Assembly: GCA_964036045.1 (NCBI GenBank)
Contig: OZ038382.1
Span: 110,072,578-110,136,577 of the forward strand
Direction of reading: 5' to 3'
From: Eutreptiella sp. 'Long Island Sound 2002'
Taxonomy: Eukaryota; Euglenozoa; Euglenophyceae; Eutreptiales; Eutreptiaceae
DNA: 64,000 nucleotides
In this document: piece by piece, positions 11,736 through 61,205 of the stretch
Position numbering within the stretch: the first letter of the stretch is position 1
Layout of the letters: every line of letters starts with the position of its first letter
Made by a program: the position numbers and the translations under genes
The notes under the pieces: generated by a model
The model's input: only the letters and a program-made list of their open reading frames with translations
Told to the model about the DNA's origin: nothing
Database searches by the model: none

Positions 11736-12331
11736 AGGGTAGGTAGGTATCTTCAGGAGCTCGAGATGCCTCCTATGACGGTGCAGGAGGAAGGTCTTAC
11801 CAAGGGGACATCCTGTCCCTCCCACTGTCCTAGGTCAGGTGCCTCTTAAGCCGCTCCCGCAGGAGCTTGGGAAGGCAGTGTCGCGGCCACCCAGTCCAGG
11901 TGTCCCAGGTGGGAGGGTGTCCCCACATGTGTCCATGCGTAGAGCCACATGCCCCCTCCTTTGGGCGGCAGCTCTGGGGGCTGCCCAGCCGTGTGGAGAA
12001 TCTCTCACCACAAGGCATATTGCTCCCGCTTGTCTACGGTACGACCGCCTCACCCTTGTGGCTTGAGTTGCCGGGCCGCTCCGCTTGGCAGGCGACCCCC
12101 TCCTGGACTGTGTACCGGCTTGCCTGTCACCGGTTGCTTCCATTACTCCTGGTGACGTTCGCCATGGTCCCCGATGTAGCCTGGCCGCGCTCGGACCAGT
12201 GGCCTTGGAGTACTGTTCCTGCCACTGCCCCGGTGGGTCGGCTGGGTCGCCCAAGCTTGTCCGACCCATGGGCTGTTGGTTCTTTCCCGTCCCTCGGCCG
12301 CCCTACGTGTGTGCGGTGTCCTGGGCCCCTT

Positions 12332-12760
12332 GGCTCCTGTTCACCGGTGTGCCCGCTCGGTGCGTTGCGTTGCATCTGCAGTGTCCAGGGCCACTTGGCT
12401 CCTGTTCACCGGTGCGCCCGCTCGGTGCTTTGCTTTGCTTGTGCGGTGTCCTGGGCCACTTGGCTCCTGTTCACCGGTGTGCCCGCGTAGTTTGTCGCAT
12501 TGCGTGTGCGGTGTCCTGGGCAACTTGGCTCCTGTTCTCCGGTGCGCCTGCTCGGTGTGTTGTGTTGTGTGTGGGGTGTCCTGGGCCACTTGGCTCCTGT
12601 TCACCGGTGTGTCCGCTCGCTGTGCTGCTTTGTGTGCGCGCTGTCCTGGGCCATTTGGCTCCTGTTCACCGTGTCCCTGGCCGTGGTGTCCCGTCTCTTT
12701 GTTGTCCTCGGTGCTTGTGCGTGTGTGGTATCCTGGCCCAGGTGGCGCCTGTTCACCGGC
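12332..12760. repeat. 65-bp tandem repeats in the LINE 3' region
   Basis: GGCTCCTGTTCACCGG recurs at 12332, 12397, 12462, 12527, 12592 and 12657, exactly 65 bp apart, with a further diverged unit at 12744. The short LINE copy has three units with the same 65-bp period. The period is not a multiple of three and the long open frames here are by-products of composition. Confidence 0.9.
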
Positions 12761-34456: not shown

Positions 34457-35641
34457 AAGGGGTGGACAACCATCTAACAGTGGCGAACTGCCAAAAGGGG
34501 GGGGTCCTGCACGACCATACCTTATGCTGCCTGGGCGCCCTCCCAGGGCCCCTCCTCCTCATGCTCTCCTCCCACCTTGCCACAACGCTACGCCAAGAGC
34601 TGGACAACCACGCGGAAGTGAGAGTGGGCTGGCAGGCAGTTGCGGACGGCGCCCTGCTGGCCCTTTTCCTCTGGGGTGGTTGCGGTGGGCACCCGTGGGA
34701 CGCCCTCATACCCCACCTTGACGGGCCCCGCACCAATGTGACAGCCACCCCGGAGCACCCTGCCCAGAGTGGGACAACGTCATCACGGCCTTCCACGGCC
34801 ATGGAGTGCACCCGACCGACACGTGGCGGACAGTCCGGGAGAAGGCGCTCATCAGAGACTACCGGTGCAGTGTCCGTGCCCGCCTGCTGGATCTTCGAGA
34901 CTCCCTTCGCCGGCGCTGGGTTGACCTCTGGCTCCGTCGGCTCGGCTGCTGGTCCCCGCCCTTTCACCTCCCGCACGCCCGCCGTCTCTGCGGGACATGC
35001 AACACAGTGTCCTCCACCGTGCCCGCAGGTACCAACAGGTGCACACGGTGCTACGTGATGGCTGCATGCCCCTCGCCAGAGCCGCCCCCGGGCCCGCGGC
35101 AACACACAGAGAAGGAGGCACTGCGGCGGCGTTTCGAAGACGCGGACCCCCTCACAGGACCGGGCGGGCCACGCTGGTGCTCATGAACTAGCCACTGCAT
35201 GACGCCGCGCATTGCAGGATCCATATCACAATGCCCCGCCGTTGGGGCACCGGGCCAACACATGCACGGGACTGCCGCCGGGTGCAAAAGGCGGCCAGGG
35301 GGAACTGGTGGTGAGTGTGGTGGCAGAGGCGCACGCGGCGCATCCCACTGCCCCGCAAGACCTGGCGGGCAGCGCGAGGACGTTCCTCCACAAACCTTCC
35401 CTCCCGGCCGTCCTGGCCTTGAACAGGGCAGGTACCCTGATGATACTCGCGGCGATGCATCGGATCCTGAACGTGGTGCGCCCGGGGCTCGTGGACCCCG
35501 AGGCTGCCCTCTACGGGCTCTGGATGGACTGGCGCACATCCAACAAGGCGGACAGAGCCCTGTTGATGGGAATTGCGCTGCGGCTGAGGGGGGAGGCGTC
35601 AGCCACTGTTCTGCGCAGCAGCGCCCCGTCTGCTCAGCTGT
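34457..35641 (+). pseudogene. LINE 3' block
   Basis: A GC-rich plus-strand segment with protein-like pieces in changing frames: about 34462-34700 (LRQELDNHAEVRVGWQAVAD), 34800-35000 (TWRTVREKALIRDYRCSVRA, with LCGTCNT and CTRCYV cysteine pairs) and 35212-35643 (ALYGLWMDWRTSNKADRALL). The two Cys pairs could be what is left of a C-terminal zinc-binding motif, common at LINE ends. It stops at the junction with the gypsy integrase. Confidence 0.35.
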
Positions 35642-37600
35642 GATTTTCTTTTTGCAAAGAAACACACGGGTGAAACGAGACAGGCCACAGGTGACCACTA
35701 GGCAACTATCATAGCCGCCGAAGCGAGGTAGGCCGTGGATGAAATGCACATAGAGAAGAGAGTTAGAACAATAGGGTATTGGTAAGCCGGAAATCAGTCC
35801 CCTATCCCTACTGTTGCTTTGCTTGCTGGCATGACAGCCACAAGCATCCACAATGGTCTGCATACGAGACCTCAGTTCAGTCAGGGTTAGAGTAGAGTAG
35901 AAACACTCACGGAAGAAGTCGACTAAGCGATTAGCGCCAGTGTTACCTGAGCTGAGATGGGCCCATTGTAGGCACCCATCATTTCGGGCCTCAGGTACGA
36001 CAATACAGTCCTCGTAGAAGAGGTACTGGTTGTTTTTATACCACTGGTGCCAGTCAATGAAACGGGGTTCGGGACCAGTGCTGAGGGTCTGGAGGATTTC
36101 TTTATACTCTGACTGATAGTCAGTTCGGCTCCAACCCTCGAGGATTCCAGCAGTGCGCATGGAAAGGTCAGGCTGGACATCCATACGCTGAGAAGCTTCT
36201 TTGGCGAGTGCCTCGGAGCTCTCACCAATAAGCGTATCGAAGTTATTGCGCGATATATAGTCAGACAGTCCATTTATTATACCTGGGATATGATGGACTG
36301 TCAGCCTGAACTGGCTCAGGTAAGTCCACCACCGCTTTAGTTTCTCTTTCTCCGGTGGTGGGCCCTTCTGAAAAGACTTCACCAGCTCCTGGTCACAGAG
36401 CCAGACAATAGGATTAGATCCCAATAGTCCGGACTGTGATGAGAGCAGCAACATACAGGCCAGGAGTTCCTGGTCGTGAGTGCTGTAACTGGAACGCGCT
36501 TGGTTCCATTTCCAGTTCCAGTGTCCCAGTGGCACAAGTCGCCACTCACTGGTAGGATAGTCATGCTTCAAGGACCCATCACGGTTCAGTCCGCTAGCAC
36601 GATAATGAAAGTCGGTTAGTTCAGCTGGGTTAAGCTCCTGCCATTGATAGATTATTCCACCCCCCATTACATCACTGGCATCAGTGATCAGGACTGTCTC
36701 GCCCTTAGGGCAGGGTACTCCCAGGCAGTTGGAGGAGGCAATTTTCTTCTCCAACTCCTGGACACACTCCTCCTCTCTGGCGGCCCACCTCCAGGGAGTT
36801 GTTTCCTTGATTAGGTCAGTGAGAGGGGCAGAGGAGTAGGTAAAATTGTGGATGTGGTGCCTATAGAAGTTACAGGCGCCCACAAAACTCCTCACCTCGT
36901 GTAGACCCTTCTTAGGGTCATCGCGAATCTGCCAGTCCTGTAGGAGCTTAGACGCGGCTGGTTTGCACCAGCCATACCCCATATCGAGACCCAAATACTC
37001 CATCTCCTCTTTCATGAACTCGCATTTTTCGAGTTTGATTCGGAGATGGTTTTCCTGACAAACAATGAAAAATTCACGGAGGAGAAGGACATGGTCCTCT
37101 TGGGTATTGGTACCCAAACTCACGTCATCGATGTGGGCCTCCATGTCTGCACCTCGGGAAATTAGTTCCTGTACCAGAGGTCTGCGCCTCAGTATGTACA
37201 AAATTTTGTTCATTAGTTCTTGGAAGAGGGCTGGGGCATTAGCCAGCCCGAAAGGCATGACCTTCCACTTAAACAGACGACACTTAGGGGTTATAAAAGC
37301 CAGCACTTACTGAGCTGTGGCGGTTAGGTCTACCTGCCAGAAACCACTGCGTTTGTCCGTTCTGGTCTTGTACGGGCACTTGGCAATACGCTCCAGGGTA
37401 TTTTCCATGTCAGGAATACTCCCTGAGTCGTTTTGCATTTTCTTGCTGACCTCACCATAGTCAACAACCAATCGTAGGGCAGTCGACCCTGGTTTAGCAA
37501 CCAGGAAACAGGGACTGCAGTGATGGGGGTAGTCCCCCTTCCTATATTCCCACGACGCCAGCATCAATACCCTCCTGGATCTGGCGCTCGATTTCGTCAA
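35642..37600 (-). pseudogene. Gypsy RT, RNase H and integrase N-terminal half
   Basis: RT: GSTALRLVVDYGEVSKK near 37470, VMPFGLANAPALFQELMNKI near 37230 and active-site box AHIDDVSLGT near 37130. RNase H: ETVLITDASDVMGGGIIYQW near 36650 and HDQELLACMLLL near 36460. Integrase: zinc-binding-like region around WAHLSSGNTGANR and CGCHASKQ (about 35830-35960), then the core start LPIPYCSNSLLYVHFIHGLP, where the usual first catalytic Asp (DFIHG) is His. Coding ends at about 35642, where the GC-rich LINE begins. A stop near 37307 separates two RT pieces. The family is that of the other gypsy remnants here. Confidence 0.85.
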
Positions 37601-38468
37601 CCTTTTCCTCAGGAGCAGGGTAGGGACAACCCCTCACTCGCGTCTTGTCAAATTCAGTTTTCAGTTTCAGGTCCATCTGGACCAGTTTCCTACAGGAAAG
37701 GGGAGGCGGCAGGGCGCCGAACACCCCCTCATAGGTTGAGAACAGTTTCTTCAGTCGGGGGTCAGGGTTAAGACTCTCGATTTTCTGCAGGAAATCCTCC
37801 TCAGCATGGAGGTTTCTCTTTCCATGCTCTTTCGTTTTCTGCCGACCAGCAGTTTCGGCAGGTACTGACCCATCATCCCACTCAGCGGGACATTGCTGCC
37901 CATAATGCAGAGAATACACTAGGGGTATCTCAGGGTCAGGCAGCGTGTAGGAGTCATCGTCCTCCTCAGACCAGATGGAGGATTCCCAGGTCTGTCTGAG
38001 GTATTGTAGCCGCTCTTGGCGCTCAATACCTTCGGCCTTCTGGTACAACAACCGTCAGAGTTCCTGAGTGTGATGCTCAGACAGTGGCATGTTATTAGAG
38101 GCAGGCCGTGCTAGAGCATCAGGACTCTGGACCACGGGTTCACCTGAGTGCATATGCTGCATGTGCAGCACCGGTTTCCCAACAGGGGAAGTTGATTCGG
38201 AGGTTGACTCTAGATCTACCTCCTCCAGTAACAGCTGGGCCAGGAAGGCACTGTGTTTTAGTTCAACACAGCTTGGATCAACAGGGGGGATAGTGCTGGC
38301 GATCTCAGGCAGTTGGTCGTCAGCATCCCCCTTTACAGGTGCAGGTTCGAAATAGCCATCGGGGGATTCACACCCTGTAAGTGTCGCAGATAGGTGCTCA
38401 GGAGATCGGTTTTTGAGATCAGAAAGGGTCAGGCCAAGATTTTTGGCCATGACCTCTTTCAGTAGCAC
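37542..38468 (-). pseudogene. Gypsy linker between protease and RT
   Basis: An acidic linker in two frame-adjacent pieces: 38468-38055 and 38051-37542, the latter with SSIWSEEDDDSYTLPDPEIP, the pre-RT GVFGALPPPLSCRKLVQMDL and VDEIERQIQEGIDAG. Homologous pieces are at 42672-43367 in the rearranged gypsy copy. No enzymatic motif. Confidence 0.7.
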
Positions 38469-38615
38469 CTGATTCAGATCACACAGGGGTACAGGATTGA
38501 GGGATCCATCGACAATGAATAAGAAACTGGCCCACTCAGGGGCCTACATAGCTGTGTCTGAGTCGTAAGGCACGTAAATGGGACCGCCGGGGAGTTACAC
38601 TCTTCCCAAGGTCAT

Positions 38616-39300
38616 TCAGTCTAGCATATGGCGCCAATAAGCGTGTTCACCTGACCAACTCCAGTCAGCGGTGCACATGACAACCCTTCCTCCATCATAA
38701 GCGAATTTGGTTAGAACCTTCGCGAGCAGGGAGAAGGGAGAGTTAGCATACGCTTTCCAGAAGAAATGGAAACCGTTGTTCAAATGTTTTGAGCAATACA
38801 ACTGCGTGATGTGCTGTTGTTGGCTCGCAAAAAAGTCCACCTGGATCTCTTCCAGGGTTACCTGAAGGGCCACCAGTCCATTTTCAAGATCGTGACGGGC
38901 CAATCGGTACTTTTCAGTACGATAGTTAGTCTTGGCTGCGTAGCGCAGCCCAGAGTCTGTTCCTCCTGACAGCTCCAAAGGTACGGAGAAGAGCCCACTG
39001 CCAAAGTCGCAGTGCAGAAAATAGGGGCGCTGGGGAGACAGCATTTTTACTTGGGGATTTCTTTGCAGGAAGTCGGTACCAATGACAATGTCAAAGGCGT
39101 CAGTGTCCAACACTCTGCAGTGTTGGGTCACAGTTTCGTTGCCAAGACAAATAGTCACATCGATTCCCCCGAAGGAATGGATGGTACGCCCGTCCCCTAC
39201 TCTTATCGCCACTGTCTTAGTTTTCTTGACAGTCTTTAGCCGGCGCCAAGCCACTATAGAAAGTGTTGCGCCGGTGTCAAGCACTGCTCGAGAAACTTGC
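38616..39300 (-). pseudogene. Gypsy aspartic protease
   Basis: The Asp-Thr-Gly active site appears in SRAVLDTGATLSIVAWRRL at the upper edge, followed by GGIDVTICLGNETVTQHCRV and DAFDIVIGTDFLQRNPQVKM. It continues in frame into a conserved segment of unknown role (ANSPFSLLAKVLTKFAYDGG) before a stop at 38616. This is the best-preserved protease copy in the window. Confidence 0.8.
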
Positions 39301-39320
39301 TCCCCGATTTTAACGAGGAT

Positions 39321-46794: not shown

Positions 46795-47520
46795 GTATCT
46801 GTCGGATCCCCAAACTCTTGAACTCCGCCGCATCAAGCCTTACTAAAGCGTGCTTTTGCTTTTGCGAGCCTGCTGGGCACTCATACACTTGCCTCCCCTG
46901 AGCTCCAGGCCTTGCTTTCGTTACCAGAGTTGTCATCAGCACATAATCCTCCTGGATCCACAAATCTGTGGATCTGCCAGATGGACGTCAGGAATGCGAC
47001 GTTTTGCGCTTTCTGAGCTCAACGGGCATCACCCAGGTGTTCAGGGCCAAAGGACAGCCGTCGGTTGTACCCGGTTTGGCCCGAAAACTCTCCATCCTGA
47101 CAGATCCCCAAAATCCTGAGATCTGCTACATCTGTGTCCCAAAAGGGACCCTTTTCGTTTTTTACTCTCTCAGGACGCTTGTAACGTGTCCTAGGCCAAC
47201 TGGTAGCTTTAGTGTGCTCCACGTTTGGCAAGAAAACCCAAAATCCTGACAAATCGGTGAAATCCTGAGATCCGCCGCATCAAAGCCCCAGAATCGACCT
47301 TTTTGGTTTTTGACTCCGAGAGGACGCATTTATCGTGTCCTAAGGCAACTTGTAGCTTTAGTGCCCTCGAGTGTGGCGCCAAAAACTGAGGGCTAAGCAA
47401 ATCCCGTAGACCCCTCCCATCAAGCTCCCAAAGGAGACTTGCAGGGTCTTGACTTGCTGGGCGCTTACAAGGCGTCCAGGAACCCCAGTGGTCTTTAGTT
47501 TGTACTATTTCAGGCCTGAT
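46795..47520 (+). repeat. Degenerate tandem monomers in the LINE 5' region
   Basis: About five units of 135-170 bp start near 46805, 46960, 47105, 47250 and 47400. They share a core like AAATCCTGAGATCYGCCGCA, then TTTTTGGTTTTTGACTC, ACGTGTCCTAGGCAACT and GTAGCTTTAGTG. Tandem promoter-bearing monomers are known in some LINE 5' UTRs (mouse L1); a similar role here is inference. Confidence 0.6.
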
Positions 47521-47689: not shown

Positions 47690-50444
47690 AATGGATACGC
47701 AGAGCCAAAAGACTCCAACACCTCGGAGATCCCCACTCCCTCCAGAACACTCGCACGCCTTTCCAGCGGACATAAGGGAAGGGGATCTTGGGGTGAATCC
47801 ATCGCTTATACCACTCTGTTTAGAGACACAAGAAGAAGAGCTGGGTTTCAGATCACGACTCACCTGTCGGCAATTTTTTCCCTCTCCCCCACGCCAACTC
47901 TTGTTCTCATGGAATCCATGGACTCGGGACAGCACCCAACGGGTATTAGAACAAGCGCGGAGTTGCCCTCTAATAGGGTGAAAAGGGGTCAGGAGGTTAT
48001 GGATCCTCCAACTCAAGGGGAGTCAAGTTTTCCAGGCGAATCTCAAGAAATCTCCTTTATTAAGGAGTTTGTACATTCTTCTCAACGTGCTAAAGAGCCA
48101 CTTACCGCGGAGAGAGTCTTAGAGACATCTACTCGGGAGCAAGAAGAAAGGGTGGAGCCTGGTCTCTTTCTGAGTGTCTATTGTTTTTCGATTTCAGCAC
48201 TACCATGCCCGAAAAAAGCTGATTCAAATAGAAAATCGTCCAGAATCAGCCATTCACGGGCGTAATATCCGTCCACATCAATATCTCAATCATTCCAAAT
48301 ATCCGTTCGTCAATTGGGGATCCCTATACCTTACCGACATCCCCGCTATCACATTCATCGTCGGATATACTGTCTTTCTTGACCTCTTTGCACCAATCCA
48401 TCAATCAACCCTTCTTGATGACTTTTGCGGCCGCCAACTTAATATTTGTCAACTGACCTCGTCAAACATCTATCTGTTATCAACCAACGTCGATAAATTG
48501 TTCAGCCTATTGAGTTCATCGAACACTATGTCCAACTGCACACCGATCATCAACACGAGAGCACCTTTGTCTACTCCATCCATACTCACCAAGCACCTCA
48601 AGAGTATACCAAACAACATGGTAAAAAAGGACTTCGTCTACCATAGACATGATAAGGAGAACAACAAGACCACCAACAGAAAGAAACTATCTCTTCCTAC
48701 CGAGGCTAGATCACGCCTATACGAGTTGGCGAAGCTGGAAATGCGAATGGACGAAGACGACTTGCACCGATCACACGACGGTTTGGCCATCCCCGAGGGA
48801 CACAAGGCCCTCCTCATAACGAGGGCTCATGACCCATTGAAACATCTCAAACATTATCTCAAAAACCACACTACGTGGTATATCTTCCCGCAAAACGACA
48901 AACGCAATCAACCGGACCATGTCTACTCCTCCAAAGTGTGTAGCCATTCCTTGAAGGCCGCGTACAACCAACTAAGAAGGGACAATCAAGACTTCCACAT
49001 GAGTGGGTGGTGGACTATGGAGTCTTGGGAGAGGCATACAATGGCACGCAATCATTTACCTTTTGCCGCCGGGCCCCTCATAGATTGGAAATGGGACGTT
49101 GATAAGGTCGTTGTACACCATGGTGTTGCACCTATGATGTCCTCTTTGCATGCTTTTCAACTCCGTAAAGGCAATATCCCGGAGCGTGCCTACGTGAGCA
49201 TCCACATTAACACGCATCACAAGGCCAATGACCCGATTGAGTTTTTCGATTATTGGAGGGATGGTTTCGCTGTTCAATGGGCACTCAACCAATTGAGTAT
49301 TCCCAAGAATATTAGAGACTTGGAGACAGCCATTCGGTTCGACGTTCGGCGTGATGTCCTCCAGCATTCTTATGAAGAGCGCTTCACTATCCACACACAA
49401 GCAGGAAAACTTACCGCCAAACAACCCGATGAAAGATTGATGACCAATGTAAGGGGCTTCCAAAAATTCTTGAACCGGCCCCTCCAAGAAGATATACCCC
49501 TTAACTCCCAAGCAGCCGCCTTCCCAGTCAGAGGCGGTTCCATCATGAAATCCCCTCAGGAAGGACATTTGCGTTTCGAATGGACCCTCCTGACCACATG
49601 TGCCAAACTTCTTTTCAAGATGGTGATGGATCATGAGTGGACATCAAACGGATCTCTGTTCGCCATTAAGGTATCCCACCTCGAGCAAAGCAACATTCTT
49701 CAACTCCAAGCGTCTAGGGAACAACTAAAGGATCGGCCCGAAATGGATGCACCCGAAACATGGTGCACCATAATGCGTTCTGGGTACGGAAAATCGCCTT
49801 ACACCATAGTTGAAGTTTGCTCTTTGCGATCTACAAATAGCCTTTTGGCCAAATTGGATGTTTTGCACGTGCCATGCGACAACGGGCGCAATCCTTTACA
49901 ATCCTTCGCGTGGAATTTATTCCACAACGACGGCATTGTCCTTTTTTACGGGAGTGAAGCACAATTGGTCAGGTTTTGGGCGAGCAGCACGACCACGGAA
50001 ACCAAACATCAAGACAACACCAAGCCCATTGCTCCGCACACGTGGTCCGAGCCGCCGACTCAATGCTCTTTCGAAGTAGGAACGCCGGGTAATGAACGTG
50101 AGCTCCACGCCAAGGTAGTAGCGGCCCTGTTTGGCCCGTTCAAAAATTGGCGAAGGACGGTGGATCCGGCCTACAACGGCCATGTGCACCCTGCCGAATA
50201 CCAATCTGAAGATTCAGCGGCGCTTGCACACCAATATTCCATGTCCGGCTCAACCATTGTATGTGCTAACCCCATTCAAATCAATCAAACCGCCCTCATG
50301 CAAGATGTTGAACCCCAAGCCCCCTTGCATCAACGCCATGTGATGGCTGGTATGGCTATGGGCTCAAAGGTCTTTGTTGCAGAGATCATAGAAGCTGATG
50401 AACGGCTGCACCAAGCACCGCTCACCACGGATCATGATCCATGA
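47690..50444 (+). CDS. LINE ORF1 protein, unknown fold, start uncertain
   Basis: The long clean frame runs from 48174 (after a TGA at 48171-48173) to a TGA at 50442-50444. Upstream, two overlapping frames at 47600-48265 and 47690-47981 look partly coding. Composition becomes convincingly protein-like from about MVKKDFVYHRHDKENN (48620). After a basic Asn/Lys-rich stretch the main body (about 550 aa) is rich in Trp, His and Arg, with WTMESWERHTMARNHLPFAA, AYVSIHINTHHKANDPIEFF and FAWNLFHNDGIVLFYGSEAQ. No CCHC knuckle, RRM or coiled coil of the usual ORF1 types is visible. The C-terminal stop is followed in the same frame by the AlkB region, so the two may have been one polyprotein. Confidence 0.6.
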
Positions 50445-51056
50445 GTTGAGCGATGCCAAAGCACCCCATACAACTTCGGAACCGGGGGAGGTTCCAGGTC
50501 TGATCCTGCACCTGATGCCATGGAAATTGAGCAAGAAAAGGCCATTCTCTCCCACCTCCGTGAAGATAACATTAATTGGGACTGCACCACGAGGAGGAAA
50601 CTGATACATTTTGGTTTTCAGTTCGACATGAAGGGTGGAAACATCCAGCCTGCCACCCCTATCCCTGAATACTTAGCGGAGGCACATTACCTCGCGGCAC
50701 AGCTCCTTTTGAGGAATGGACTGGAACACCAACTCAACCAGTGCACAGTAGCGATCTACGAACCAGGACTAGGTGTGGTTGAGCACTCAGAAAATCCTCT
50801 CCTGGGCAACACAGTAGTTACTGTAGGCTTTCAAGGCGTCGTGCTCATTTCAGGCCACCTGATGGTACTGATTTTACGACAGTCACCCTCTACCATCGAA
50901 GGCGTGACTTCATTGCCCTCACCAGAGATTGCCTAAAAAAGTGGAAACATGGCATTCCGGCTCATATGGAGGAAGAAGTAGATGGAGAAAAATTTGCACG
51001 GACCCAACGCACTTCCCTGATATTCCGGAACGCACCACCCCCGCCCACTCACAATG
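50445..51056 (+). pseudogene. AlkB-like 2-oxoglutarate/Fe(II) dioxygenase domain
   Basis: After the ORF1 TGA the same frame stays open through MEIEQEKAILSHLREDNINW (from 50520). AlkB/ALKBH-like signatures follow: RRKLIHFGFQFDMKGGN, PIPEYLAEAHYLAAQLLL, NQCTVAIYEPGLGVVEHSEN and GNTVVTVGF. A shift of frame near 50845 leads to TTVTLYHRRRDFIALTRDCL, KKWKHGIPAHM and ARTQRTSLIFRNAPPP, ending TAG at 51054-51056. The iron-binding positions would be His 50784-50786, the residue two later (Glu 50790-50792 in place of the usual Asp) and His 50948-50950; two Arg at 50999-51001 and 51008-51010 fit the 2-oxoglutarate-binding RxxR-type end. AlkB proteins remove alkyl or methyl lesions from nucleic acids; here the substrate could be the element's RNA (inference). 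The frameshift and HxE suggest this copy is inactive. Confidence 0.7.
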
Positions 51057-51479
51057 AATAGCGGTAATGAGACTCTTGACTACAAGCTGGTCACTGGCTG
51101 CTCACGGACGGCCCGGCTCTGGCCACTGAGGCTTACCCCCAACATCTCTTACTTTCTTTTCTCCAGTGTATTTTTTCATGGCCAAGACGACGTGAAGGGA
51201 GTCCCAGCGATGGGTTACCAGAATGTCAGTTGCACCGATGCAGGTTCTCCCATCCAGTCCGATCATGAGCATGAGCATGCATTTTATAAACCGAGGGTTA
51301 TGTCCCTGCTCGCGTCATGGGGGACATTGGTAGTTAAAGTTGGCACCTTCGCCACACCTTTTAACTTCGACGCCCCAGATCATCACTCCAACTCATCCGC
51401 ACACCCCAACAGTTGGACCTCAGATCCCTTGTATTTTGCGTGCCTGCAACAGAGTACTGTTCATTACAAGGAAAACAAG

Positions 51480-52180
51480 ACCCCGTTGCAACACACCAGT
51501 GCAGTATGTCACCCCAGCCCCACCCCACTCGAACATACACGCCCAAAAACACATTGTCTTTTGTTGCACACACTATTCATTCAGACTTCTGCCTGCGGTG
51601 ATCATGAAACTGTCTCGACTATGCCCTATAGCTCCGGCAGGACTCGTATCCGCACCACGCTCACTTATTATCGGTGCCACGCTCGGTCCTTTCGGCCGCT
51701 CTCTACGCCCAATGGCGCTCCGATGTGGAAGATCCAACGGCACCTCCTCCTCCACCGTCAGAGTGAGAATATACCTGCTTCACTGCCCAGCGGTGAAGTA
51801 TGTTCCCCCCTCCGAACCCCGCGTCCTACTTCGGTCAGCCCCAACCCCCAGCGCTCTCCGCCCGTCCACGGCCTTGATTCCAATATTTCCTTCATGCACT
51901 CCCTATCACAGGTTGTGCACGTTCATCCAAATTGTCATACAGAACACTTCATCATCAGGAAGGCTAAAACGCGCATGGGTGTAGGCCGATCTTCGCTGGC
52001 TTTCCTCAGCGAAGTATGTCGCCCTTCACACGCACCATCGGCGTACGTGTTCGCCAGACAAGTCAGTCACAACCCCTCCCATTCAACTGCAGTGTGCCTT
52101 ACCAGCTTGGTTGCTGCCTTACATATGAACATCCATCGAGGTTCGCTGCGATATCACAGCGACGTATGTTACCCCCTATT
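51480..52180 (+). repeat. Repeated hairpin plus GTATGT unit between AlkB and endonuclease
   Basis: A short inverted repeat followed by (A/C)GTATGTY and a C-rich stretch occurs at 51778-51804 (CTTCAC..GTGAAGTATGTTCCC), 51991-52020 (CTTCGCTG..CAGCGAAGTATGTC) and 52141-52172 (TTCGCTG..CAGCGACGTATGTT), with a weaker one at 51484-51512. Arms differ in sequence but pairing is kept, which points to selection on RNA structure. The long open frame here (51054-52358) has no protein-like features and is probably incidental. Confidence 0.5.
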
Positions 52181-52404
52181 CCCCGATTTTCTGCCTGTGA
52201 GGGCCAGGAGCTATGAAATTTCCCCCCCAAAGTCCCGCAGCCCCTCCACGCTTCCCCTCAGGGCTCGCCCCAGGTCTGGCACAGCTCACTCCTGGCTCCT
52301 CCCCTCTATCATGAGACCCCTTACCTCACCCACACCAACCCTGATATGGTATAAATGAATCTCTCGTTGCGAGAAGTCCTTAAAAAAAAGGGCTTAGCAA
52401 TGAC

Positions 52405-53794
52405 ATGATCCAGCGTGCTGTTGGCTCACGAGGCCAAGACCCTTCCCCGCGTGTACCCCCTGCCTGGCACCCCCCCATGGAAAACCCCGCCCCTCGACCC
52501 CCTATGCAGCAGTCCGAACAACCTGAATACCCCGCGGCCAGCCCCCCCCTCATTCCAAACCCCCCACCTGTGCCTTTCGCTGAGCGCCCCAAACCTTCTC
52601 CCGACCCTCCGGCACCTCCCCTACCCAAATTTCGCTCCTATAACATCAACAAGCAAGCTCCAGAGCAATTCATCCTTGCCGACTTGGACGCTGGATACGA
52701 CATCCCGTGTTATCAAGGGATCAACAGGAAACCAGACCTTCCCATGATGTGGGCAAACCAGAAACCACCTCCGAAAAATATTCTCTTCCATTGCAATGGC
52801 AGGGGCCGAAGGAACTGCTCTCTTAGTGGCTCCTAGACTGGCCCCATACACCTTCACTGTCTCTTCACCTTGCCCGGATGCGCTTAGTCTAGCTGAGTTG
52901 CATCTACCGGGGCAGCCAATCATTCTTTTGGCGAGCGTCTACGCCCAGCCCCCTCGACTCCAAGGGCTCGAAAGAACCCTGGACACACTATTCAAAAAAT
53001 ACCCCTTTTATGTCCTGATAGGTGACTTTAACGCCCAATTGAGTTTGCTAGACTCCAACGGAGTCACCCGCAACTCATGGAGCTGGCTAACCGCTTTGGT
53101 ACACGACCGCCACTTGGCAGTTGATACATACCGTGTCAAGCACCCGTGTACCTCTGCATTTACCTGGTACGAATCAGCACTTTTCCCCTGCGATACTCGG
53201 ATCAACCTCTTTTTGATCTCCCCCCCCCTGGCCTCCAGAGCATCTTTTGAATTAAAAGAGGCAGACATCTGCCAACAGGAAAGTTCCTCTGATCACCACC
53301 CCATCATTGATAGCTTCAAGTTGCCTTCCACCCCTGAATGTCTCCCGCCCCCCCAAACCATTTACCCTCTTCAGACGCTTCACTCAAGCCGAAGAGTCCC
53401 TCTTTTGTTGCAAATTAACGTTCCTCGAAGAGTGGGCTTGCAACTACCCTCTTCAGGTTCCTCCTCTCCTTTTTGTCGACCACGTTACGGCGCTCTGCAA
53501 GCAGATTTCGCAGGCCTACCACAGTGTCAGGCGCCCAGCTTGCAAACATAAAAACACAGCTCTCCAAACAAAGTTTAAATCCCTTCTTCACAACCTGCCG
53601 CAGGGAGGGGAACAGCGCAAGGCGGCTCTGCACAAACTACAGGCTATGGCCGACTCATGGAAAGCTAAGATTTTCAAAAAGCGCAAACGCAAACTTCATT
53701 ACTCCATGATTGGCTGCCACAAAATCAAAAGGGCCGTGCAAGAGTCTCTTCACCCTCGGACCAGGGAACCCTTGCAAGTCTGGGGTAAGGACCA
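52405..53794 (+). pseudogene. LINE APE-type endonuclease, decayed
   Basis: After a Pro-rich leader (52405-52620) the domain begins KFRSYNINKQAPEQFILADL, then AGYDIPCYQGINRKPD, where the catalytic Glu of the usual QE motif is Gly. A frameshift near 52800 leads to GQPIILLASVYAQPPRL, YVLIGDFNAQLSLLDSNGVT (GDFN motif intact), CTSAFTWYESALFPCDTRIN (the usual RID is RIN) and QQESSSDHHPIID (SDH intact). The linker to about 53794 (KAKIFKKRKRKLHYSMIG) is typical of the stretch before RT. RT itself is absent because the 335-bp repeat begins here. The loss of two catalytic acids means it is inactive. Confidence 0.8.
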
Positions 53795-54129
53795 ACTGTC
53801 ATATGCTTGTGCTTGGGTGCATATAGAAAACCCATTTTCCTTGTCTTGCACTTAAAAATTAAATTGTTTCCAATGTTCTCCATTACAATTCATCTCGTTG
53901 GCAAGTACGGGACACAGGCAACAGCAAGAAGACGGAGTCGTGAATGAACATTGAGCTGGACCAACTGGCTGGTCCAGTAATACTGGTTCACATGCCTAAA
54001 TAACAAGAAAAGTGATATAACAATAAATTCTCGTTAAAAGGGCAATGAAACCTATATTTTAGCAACTTTCTGACTAGTCTATCTTATCACAGGCCCTGTC
54101 AACATTACGTAAATTGCTGTCGCCGACAG
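53795..54129. repeat. 335-bp dispersed repeat, copy 1
   Basis: Nearly identical to 60871-61205 in the same orientation. Starts ACTGTCATATGCTTGTGCTT and ends GCTGTCGCCGACAG, so CTGTC and GACAG form a 5-bp inverted terminus. It truncates the endonuclease ORF. No coding capacity. Confidence 0.85.
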
Positions 54130-54710: not shown

Positions 54711-55318
54711 CAAAGTATGAACAGGTAGGTAGGTATCTTCGGGAGCTCGGGATGCCTCCTTTGACATTGCAGGAAGAAGGTCTTACCAAGGGGACGTCCT
54801 GTCCCTCCCACTGCCCTATGTCAGGTGCCTCTTGAGCCGCTCCCGCATGTGCTTGGGAAGGCATTGTCGCGGCCACCCGGTCCATGTGTCCCAGGTGGGA
54901 GGGTGTCCCCACATGTGTCCATGGGTAGGGCCACATGCCCCCTCCTTTGGGCGGCAGCTCTGGGGGGCTGCCCAGCCGTGTGGAGTATCTCTCACCACGA
55001 GGGGTATTGCTCCCGCTTGTCTACGGTACGACCGCCTCACCCTTGTGGCTTGAGTTGCGGGGCCACTCTGCTTGGCAGGTGACCCCCTCCTGGACTGTGT
55101 ACCGGCTCGCCTGTCACCGGTTGCTTCCATGGCTCCGGGTGACGTTTGCCATGGTCCTCGATGCAGCCTGGCCGGGCTCAGACCAGTGGCTTTGGAGTAC
55201 CGCTCCTGCCACTGGCCCGGTGGGTCGGCTGGGTCGCCCCAGTGCGTCCGACCCATGGGGTATTGGTTCTTTCCTGTCCCTCGGCTGCCCTACGTGTGTG
55301 TAGCGTCCTGGGCCGTTG

Positions 55319-55515
55319 GGCTCCTGTTCACCGGTGTGCCCGCGCGGTTTGCTGTGGTGCGTCTGCGGTGTCCTGGGCCAGCTGGCTCCTGTTCACCGGT
55401 GTGCCCGCTCGGTGTGTTGTGTTGCATGTGCGGTGTCCTGGGCCCCTGGGCTCCTGTTTACCGGTGTGCGTGCTGTGTGCGGTGCGCGTGTGCCATGGGT
55501 GGATGTGTCCCTCTT
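55319..55515. repeat. 65-bp tandem repeats, three units
   Basis: GGCTCCTGTT recurs at 55319, 55384 and 55449 (65-bp steps), the same unit as in the long LINE copy, which has about seven. Confidence 0.9.
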
Positions 55516-60870: not shown

Positions 60871-61205
60871 ACTGTCATATGCTTGTGCTTGGATGCATAT
60901 AGAAAACACATTTTCCTTGTCTTGCACTTAAAAATCAAATTGTTTCCAATGTTCTCCATTACAATTGATCTTGTTGGCAAGTACAGGACACAGGCAACAG
61001 CAAGAAGACAGAGACGTGAACGAACATTGAGCTGGACCAACTGGCTGGTCCAGTAATACGGGTTCACATGCCTAAATAACAAGAAAAGTGATTTAACAAT
61101 AAATTCTCATTAAAAAGGCAATGAAACCTATATTTTGGCAACTTTCTGAGTAGTCTATCCTATCACTGGCCCTGTCAACATTACGTAAATTGCTGTCGCC
61201 GACAG
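60871..61205. repeat. 335-bp dispersed repeat, copy 2
   Basis: Same ends as copy 1 (ACTGTCATATG... and ...GCTGTCGCCGACAG), with about 15 differences by eye. It is followed closely by the unrecognised multi-exon gene. Confidence 0.85.

Follow-up and report, generated by a model that had tools for sequence, protein, structure and literature searches.

We report a non-LTR retrotransposon, an APE-type LINE, that carries an AlkB-like 2OG-Fe(II) oxygenase domain, and we lean slightly towards a model in which its ORF1 protein ends in this oxygenase and demethylates the element's own RNA in cis. The window, a 64-kb stretch of genomic DNA, harbors one damaged copy of the LINE, comprising ORF1, the AlkB-like domain, a middle ORF and an APE-type ORF2, and the domain is confirmed at positions 50520–51061, between ORF1 and the APE ORF. 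Gene order, fusion of AlkB to ORF1, conservation, selection and co-inheritance are read directly from comparisons of genomic copies, whereas the action on element RNA is what we infer from them. The parts of the window copy are arranged as follows.

47074..47377, + strand: two direct repeats of ~155 bp located 5' of ORF1 (75% identical, E 2.7e-25), possibly 5' UTR monomers, the UTR role being a presumed one
48174..50444, + strand: ORF1, 756 aa from stop to stop (500 shuffles gave no frame above 261 codons)
50442..50444, + strand: TGA between ORF1 and AlkB, with a stop at equal distance (21 aa) from the domain in L045
50520..50837, + strand: AlkB piece A with the H-x-E metal motif (PDB match to ALKBH8, E 3.6e-5); by alignment, H at 50784–50786 and E at 50790–50792
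50838..50851, + strand: frameshift within the AlkB domain, where the siblings L044 and L045 are single-frame
50852..51061, + strand: AlkB piece B and stop codon, from a PDB search joined with piece A and from alignments, which place the distal H at 50948–50950 and the R..R pair at 51008–51010 and 51026–51028
51054..52358, + strand: middle ORF, starting with an ATG that overlaps the stop codon of AlkB (ATGAATAG); 431 open codons compared with at most 331 in 500 shuffles
52384..52836, + strand: ORF2 start with a proline-rich stretch and the first part of the APE domain
52748..53551, + strand: APE-type endonuclease of ORF2 in a second frame (PF14529, E 2.4e-7)
53373..53795, + strand: post-APE stretch in a third frame, found in relatives, and end of the element, where the repeat 53795–54129 starts

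Differences between the window copy and its siblings L044 and L045 are rather evenly distributed across codon positions, as in a broken copy. The DNA of the ORF2 start (52384–52836) is kept in L008/L017 (83% if read in another frame), and the element ends at about 53795, at the start of a 335-bp repeat. The first-pass annotation had located four AlkB peptides in the ORF1 frame after the TGA; all four are present, but they occupy two frames instead of a shared one. The ORF1 frame following the TGA at 50442–50444 holds NQCTVAIYEPGLGVVEHSEN and GNTVVTVGF, whereas KKWKHGIPAHM and RTQRTSLIFR lie behind the frameshift in the other frame. A programmed frameshift inside AlkB was rejected, as L044 and L045 stay in one frame at that site; for the same reason the frameshift is not common to the nearest kin of the window copy.

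The proposal of an AlkB-like domain between a long ORF1 and an APE ORF was borne out by PDB searches. Piece A alone matched ALKBH8 (E 3.6e-5) and, weakly, ALKBH6 (0.43), and piece B alone retrieved two entries (E 1.6 and 1.8), both named DNA N6-methyladenine demethylase, a result that by itself is at chance level. Upon joining both pieces with X, eight sequences were retrieved under E 1, with ALKBH8 ranking first (E 3e-11), followed at E 0.09–0.52 by ALKBH6, four entries bearing the name DNA N6-methyladenine demethylase and two bearing the name P8A3.02c; we take the latter six to be AlkB-family proteins. Pfam gave no match for pieces A and B searched apart. A match to profile PF13532, by which the annotation had suggested checking the domain, remained below cut-off for the joined window copy (E 0.11, 13.1 bits versus 31.2), but was found above cut-off in the related copies L016 (4.4e-9), L074 (1.1e-10) and L021 (2.8e-7), assigning these to the AlkB family; the L022 copy gave no PF13532 match. 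A tblastn search of plasmids with the joined domain returned 57 records (best E 2e-8), and among the 20 listed, 17 are annotated as AlkB, two as ‘none’ and one record is without annotation. Aligned to six plasmid proteins, the joined domain retains the metal H, the distal H and both R, with the metal Asp replaced by Glu. Searches of viral contigs with ORF1, AlkB piece A and APE, of phages with piece A and the joined domain, and of NCBIfam and PHROGs led nowhere (PHROGs: one unnamed family, E 0.15), and none of 57 pattern matches for AlkB in genome contigs was confirmed.

To place the copy in its genomic context, the host genome (2.28 Gb, chromosome-size contigs) was searched with the window APE protein and with AlkB piece A, which match at least 144 and at least 150 places, respectively, the window's own included in both. 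At 90 of the 144 listed APE places, again including the window, AlkB is positioned no more than 4.5 kb 5' of APE in the same strand orientation, at distances of 1244–4091 bp (median 2486). Widening the range to 7 kb upstream on the same strand yields AlkB at 95 of 144 places, while within 7 kb it was found downstream on the same strand at none of the 144 and on the opposite strand at two. The other 54 of 144 places lack a listed AlkB within 4.5 kb, the lists being lower bounds and some copies being cut. We read 28 upstream regions (10 plus 18), our choice falling largely on APE places that are strong or intact: AlkB is present in 23, with only the end of the domain in L018, and was not found in five (L020, L032, L038, L041 and L042). 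Frames of at least 900 aa contain 34 of the 150 listed AlkB places. A PF13532 scan of the host genome produced 151 matches from 1107 candidates, every listed row being over cut-off and many sitting in frames of 900–1546 aa; four of these or like places were read (L074, L075, L077 and L078). PF13532 domains are very numerous in this genome, and those with the highest scores may belong to host ALKBH genes. Collectively, the order ORF1-AlkB-APE-RT suggested by the window copy recurs, with AlkB 5' of APE at 90 of 144 places, ORF1 and AlkB in one frame in L016, L021 and L022, and RT after APE in L016/L073.

ORF1 and AlkB share a single open frame of 966 aa in L021, 972 aa in L022 and 783 aa in L016. 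ORF1 is homologous in other copies (tblastn pieces 27–50% identical; 22% to L074). Window ORF1 alone had no Pfam or PDB relative, a five-member ORF1 alignment revealed no convincing relative and no recognized RNA-binding domain, and AlphaFold prediction of ORF1 without alignment reached a pLDDT of 29. In 50 rows consisting of the domain start and 60 aa of preceding sequence (certain loci being represented twice, and the window copy entered as L043), the 60 aa ahead of the domain are open in 38 and contain a stop in 12. The stretch left open before the domain of L044/L017 is not ORF1, as upstream of 50487 it cannot be aligned to the window. At the site of the TGA, the frame is read through in L046, L047, L052, L053 and L056, which form the window's wider subfamily, and in L064, L016 and L022; in L047, whose junction is open, a stop occurs 39 aa ahead of the domain. 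L045, 90% identical to the window in DNA, carries a stop 21 aa before the domain as the window does, and damage private to the window copy was therefore rejected as an explanation of the TGA. The ORF1/AlkB split may be common to the window's nearest kin and, because of the same-place stop in L045, split proteins or readthrough are possible in the window's own subfamily. Fusion extends to a distant family, L074/L075, with an ORF1-AlkB frame of 1142 aa and HxD in L074 and, within about 0.75 kb after it, an APE-RT-like stretch in L076 that is itself broken by frame changes. It extends as well to L077/L078, where the ORF1-AlkB part shares 24% identity with L074. The idea of an ORF1 polyprotein including AlkB thus holds for L016, L021 and L022, but is less certain for the window's own subfamily owing to the stop in L045, the closest sibling alignable at this site.

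Codon comparisons indicate that the AlkB domain is under purifying selection. Omega amounts to 0.079 over 11 intact domains (lnL −3693.5 versus −4000.5 at omega 1, kappa fixed at 2), a set from which L029 was omitted because its protein is identical to L016. In the six pairs whose dS lies above 0 and below 1.6, omega ranges from 0.05 to 0.60, the 0.60 pair differing at very few sites. Distances of AlkB match those of the preceding 330 aa in a Mantel test over 15 loci (r 0.956; reached in 0 of 5000 permutations), and AlkB is co-inherited with ORF1.

Long ORFs occupy the place of the middle ORF in L016, L021, L022 and L023 and overlap their neighbors, with a length of 552–906 aa in L016, L021 and L022. 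As omega is 0.42–1.06 in four pairs and differences are spread over codon positions, we do not claim that the middle ORF encodes a conserved protein. A repeated ...SEVC... motif was noticed in the middle ORFs (window 51054–52358; L021, L022 and L016), and the ORF seems to be missing in the L074 family. The APE domain matches PF14529 at 2.4e-7 in the window and at 7.2e-8 in L016, and the best PDB match of the window APE is the LINE-1 endonuclease (E 0.008). L016 combines RVT_1 (3.1e-17) and APE in one 764-aa stretch, and its ORF2 continues in L073 with RT (7.9e-15); APE in the window and L016, together with RT in the same ORF as APE in L016 and L073, thus correspond to an APE-type LINE. The window itself yielded no RT belonging to this element: Pfam is blank at 53256–53852, and the part past 53795 was inspected by ORF lists only. 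In L073, a stretch resembling RNase H is visible by eye, with none reported by Pfam, and RT is separated from the RNase H-like end by a chromo/Tudor-like stretch at about residues 316–348, which matches PF23327 below cut-off (E 0.0047).

Concerning the iron site, HxE replaces HxD in all 13 aligned domains of the window family, yielding an HxE...H triad in place of HxD...H; these domains retain the distal H (13), the first R (13) and the last R (12). A larger alignment of 60 rows consists of pieces of copies, with some loci twice and the window included. Counting rows with a letter, it displays H in 51 of 53, E in 45 of 53 (D in 4) and the distal H in 50 of 51, and the arginines of R-x5-R near the C-terminal end, the 2OG-binding motif, in 47 of 51 and 48 of 52. 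Decay of the window copy as the origin of HxE was rejected, the motif being common to 13/13 aligned domains. HxD is retained in distant families of the host genome (L074, L075; L077, L078, with a canonical-looking site in L077/L078), and we therefore label the domain of the window family ‘AlkB-like, HxE variant’. Since HxE stands in place of HxD throughout these 13 domains, activity in the window family is not certain. The substitution, found in 13/13 domains and 45/53 rows, would fit a domain that has lost catalysis and now acts as an RNA-binding or assembly module; yet the distal H and both R are conserved under an omega of 0.08, and JmjC oxygenases bind iron with HxE, so that we regard such a loss as unlikely.

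For the slightly favored reading, an ORF1-borne oxygenase acting on element RNA, we envisage the following course. By analogy with the ORF1 proteins of other LINEs, the one encoded here most likely coats the RNA of its own element and would thereby bring the AlkB domain into contact with that RNA in cis. The domain would then strip off methyl groups by oxidation before reverse transcription. The groups removed would be either marks on the Watson-Crick face (m1A, m3C), at which the reverse transcriptase of the element would otherwise stall, or m6A, through which the host might silence the element. This reading gains from ALKBH8 being the closest solved enzyme for three copies (window, L016 and L074; E 8.6e-12 to 2.7e-9), from the fusion of AlkB to an ORF1 relative also in the distant L074 and L077/L078, with HxD, and from the removal of m6A from RNA in vitro by the AlkB of an orchid Ty3/gypsy element (PMC9289625). 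Removal of m6A need not help a LINE, because in human L1 the eraser ALKBH5 suppresses retrotransposition, which METTL3 helps (PMC7873242); the element from orchid and ONSEN point the opposite way on RNA methylation (PMC9289625). Against the favored reading we count HxE in the window family, an ORF1 without recognized RNA-binding domain and the stop within 60 aa in 12 of 50 rows.

Alternatively, AlkB might act on DNA, repairing or demethylating the target site or new cDNA at integration. AlkB enzymes also act on DNA, and the name DNA N6-methyladenine demethylase appears among the weak PDB matches, but AlkB is fused to ORF1 and not to the endonuclease/RT protein, and ALKBH8 is the best solved relative by a wide margin; we judge action on DNA improbable. 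ALKBH8 is a tRNA enzyme, which counts against demethylation of element RNA, and, as the top PDB match of three separate copies, it raises the prospect of a domain modifying host tRNA as ALKBH8 does and favoring translation of the element. ALKBH8 combines RRM, AlkB and methyltransferase, however, and neither RRM nor methyltransferase gave a Pfam match at E up to 1 in the scanned ORF1 proteins; likeness to its AlkB domain alone leaves the substrate unfixed, and we hold the tRNA reading a shade less probable still. ALKBH8 (PDB 3thp/3tht) differs further from the window family by the HxE of the latter. Accidental integration of a host AlkB gene or pseudogene into an old LINE, as the window copy alone with its stop and frameshift suggested, is refuted by AlkB upstream of 90/144 APE places and disagrees with fusion, selection and co-inheritance, leaving it a negligible prospect.

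Returning to an ORF1-borne demethylase of element RNA, comparison with known systems separates what is familiar from what is new. L1-like APE-type LINEs likewise have ORF1 followed by an APE-RT ORF and share the LINE-1 endonuclease as best PDB match of APE; here, in contrast, an ORF1 without recognized domain ends in AlkB, and a middle ORF lies between. AlkB in retroelements may have been touched on in 2OG oxygenase work of Aravind's group. AlkB of plant RNA viruses sits in the replicase, a difference from the present element. Such viruses (Alphaflexi-, Betaflexi- and Closteroviridae; PMC9289625) are similar to it as mobile RNA-replicating elements carrying AlkB. The Phalaenopsis Ty3/gypsy retrotransposon likewise encodes an AlkB 2OG oxygenase, which demethylates m6A RNA in vitro; it is an LTR element with a recent AlkB that forms an ORF of its own and is reported to resemble most closely known RNA demethylases of human and Arabidopsis (paALKBH5-like) (PMC9289625). 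The present element, by comparison, is non-LTR, has AlkB fused to ORF1 in the copies read, has ALKBH8 as best solved match and occurs in deep lineages. The literature searched, mostly as listings of papers and with Repbase outside its scope, gave no report of AlkB inside a LINE. On this basis, capture of AlkB by an RNA-based mobile element is known, and another element class, the LINE, together with fusion to ORF1, is new.

We consider it an evenly balanced proposition that the copies represent an old and diverse LINE superfamily with an RNA demethylase in its ORF1 nucleoprotein, several deep lineages of which one switched from HxD to HxE. If true, an epitranscriptomic weapon would be built into the RNA coat of a LINE. 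AlkB would lengthen the brief catalog of known LINE ORF1 parts by one domain, and the HxE form raises the question of whether AlkB chemistry tolerates such a metal site. With a strongly selected ORF1-AlkB LINE at hand, whether RNA methylation restrains or helps retrotransposons becomes directly testable.

Further features were observed elsewhere in the window, in which tRNA and Rfam scans over the whole length found nothing. A 335-bp repeat, 95% identical, is present in the same orientation at 53795–54129 and 60871–61205, 7 kb apart, with the ends CTGTC...GACAG; the pair may represent LTRs or a short element present twice, and no matching target-site duplication was seen by eye. Parts of LTR-type retroelements with protease, RT and RNase H matches are located at 35051–39317 on the − strand, with related copies nearby. 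Finally, 65-bp tandem repeat units at 12309–12671 and 55305–55469 are common to two transposon-like stretches.
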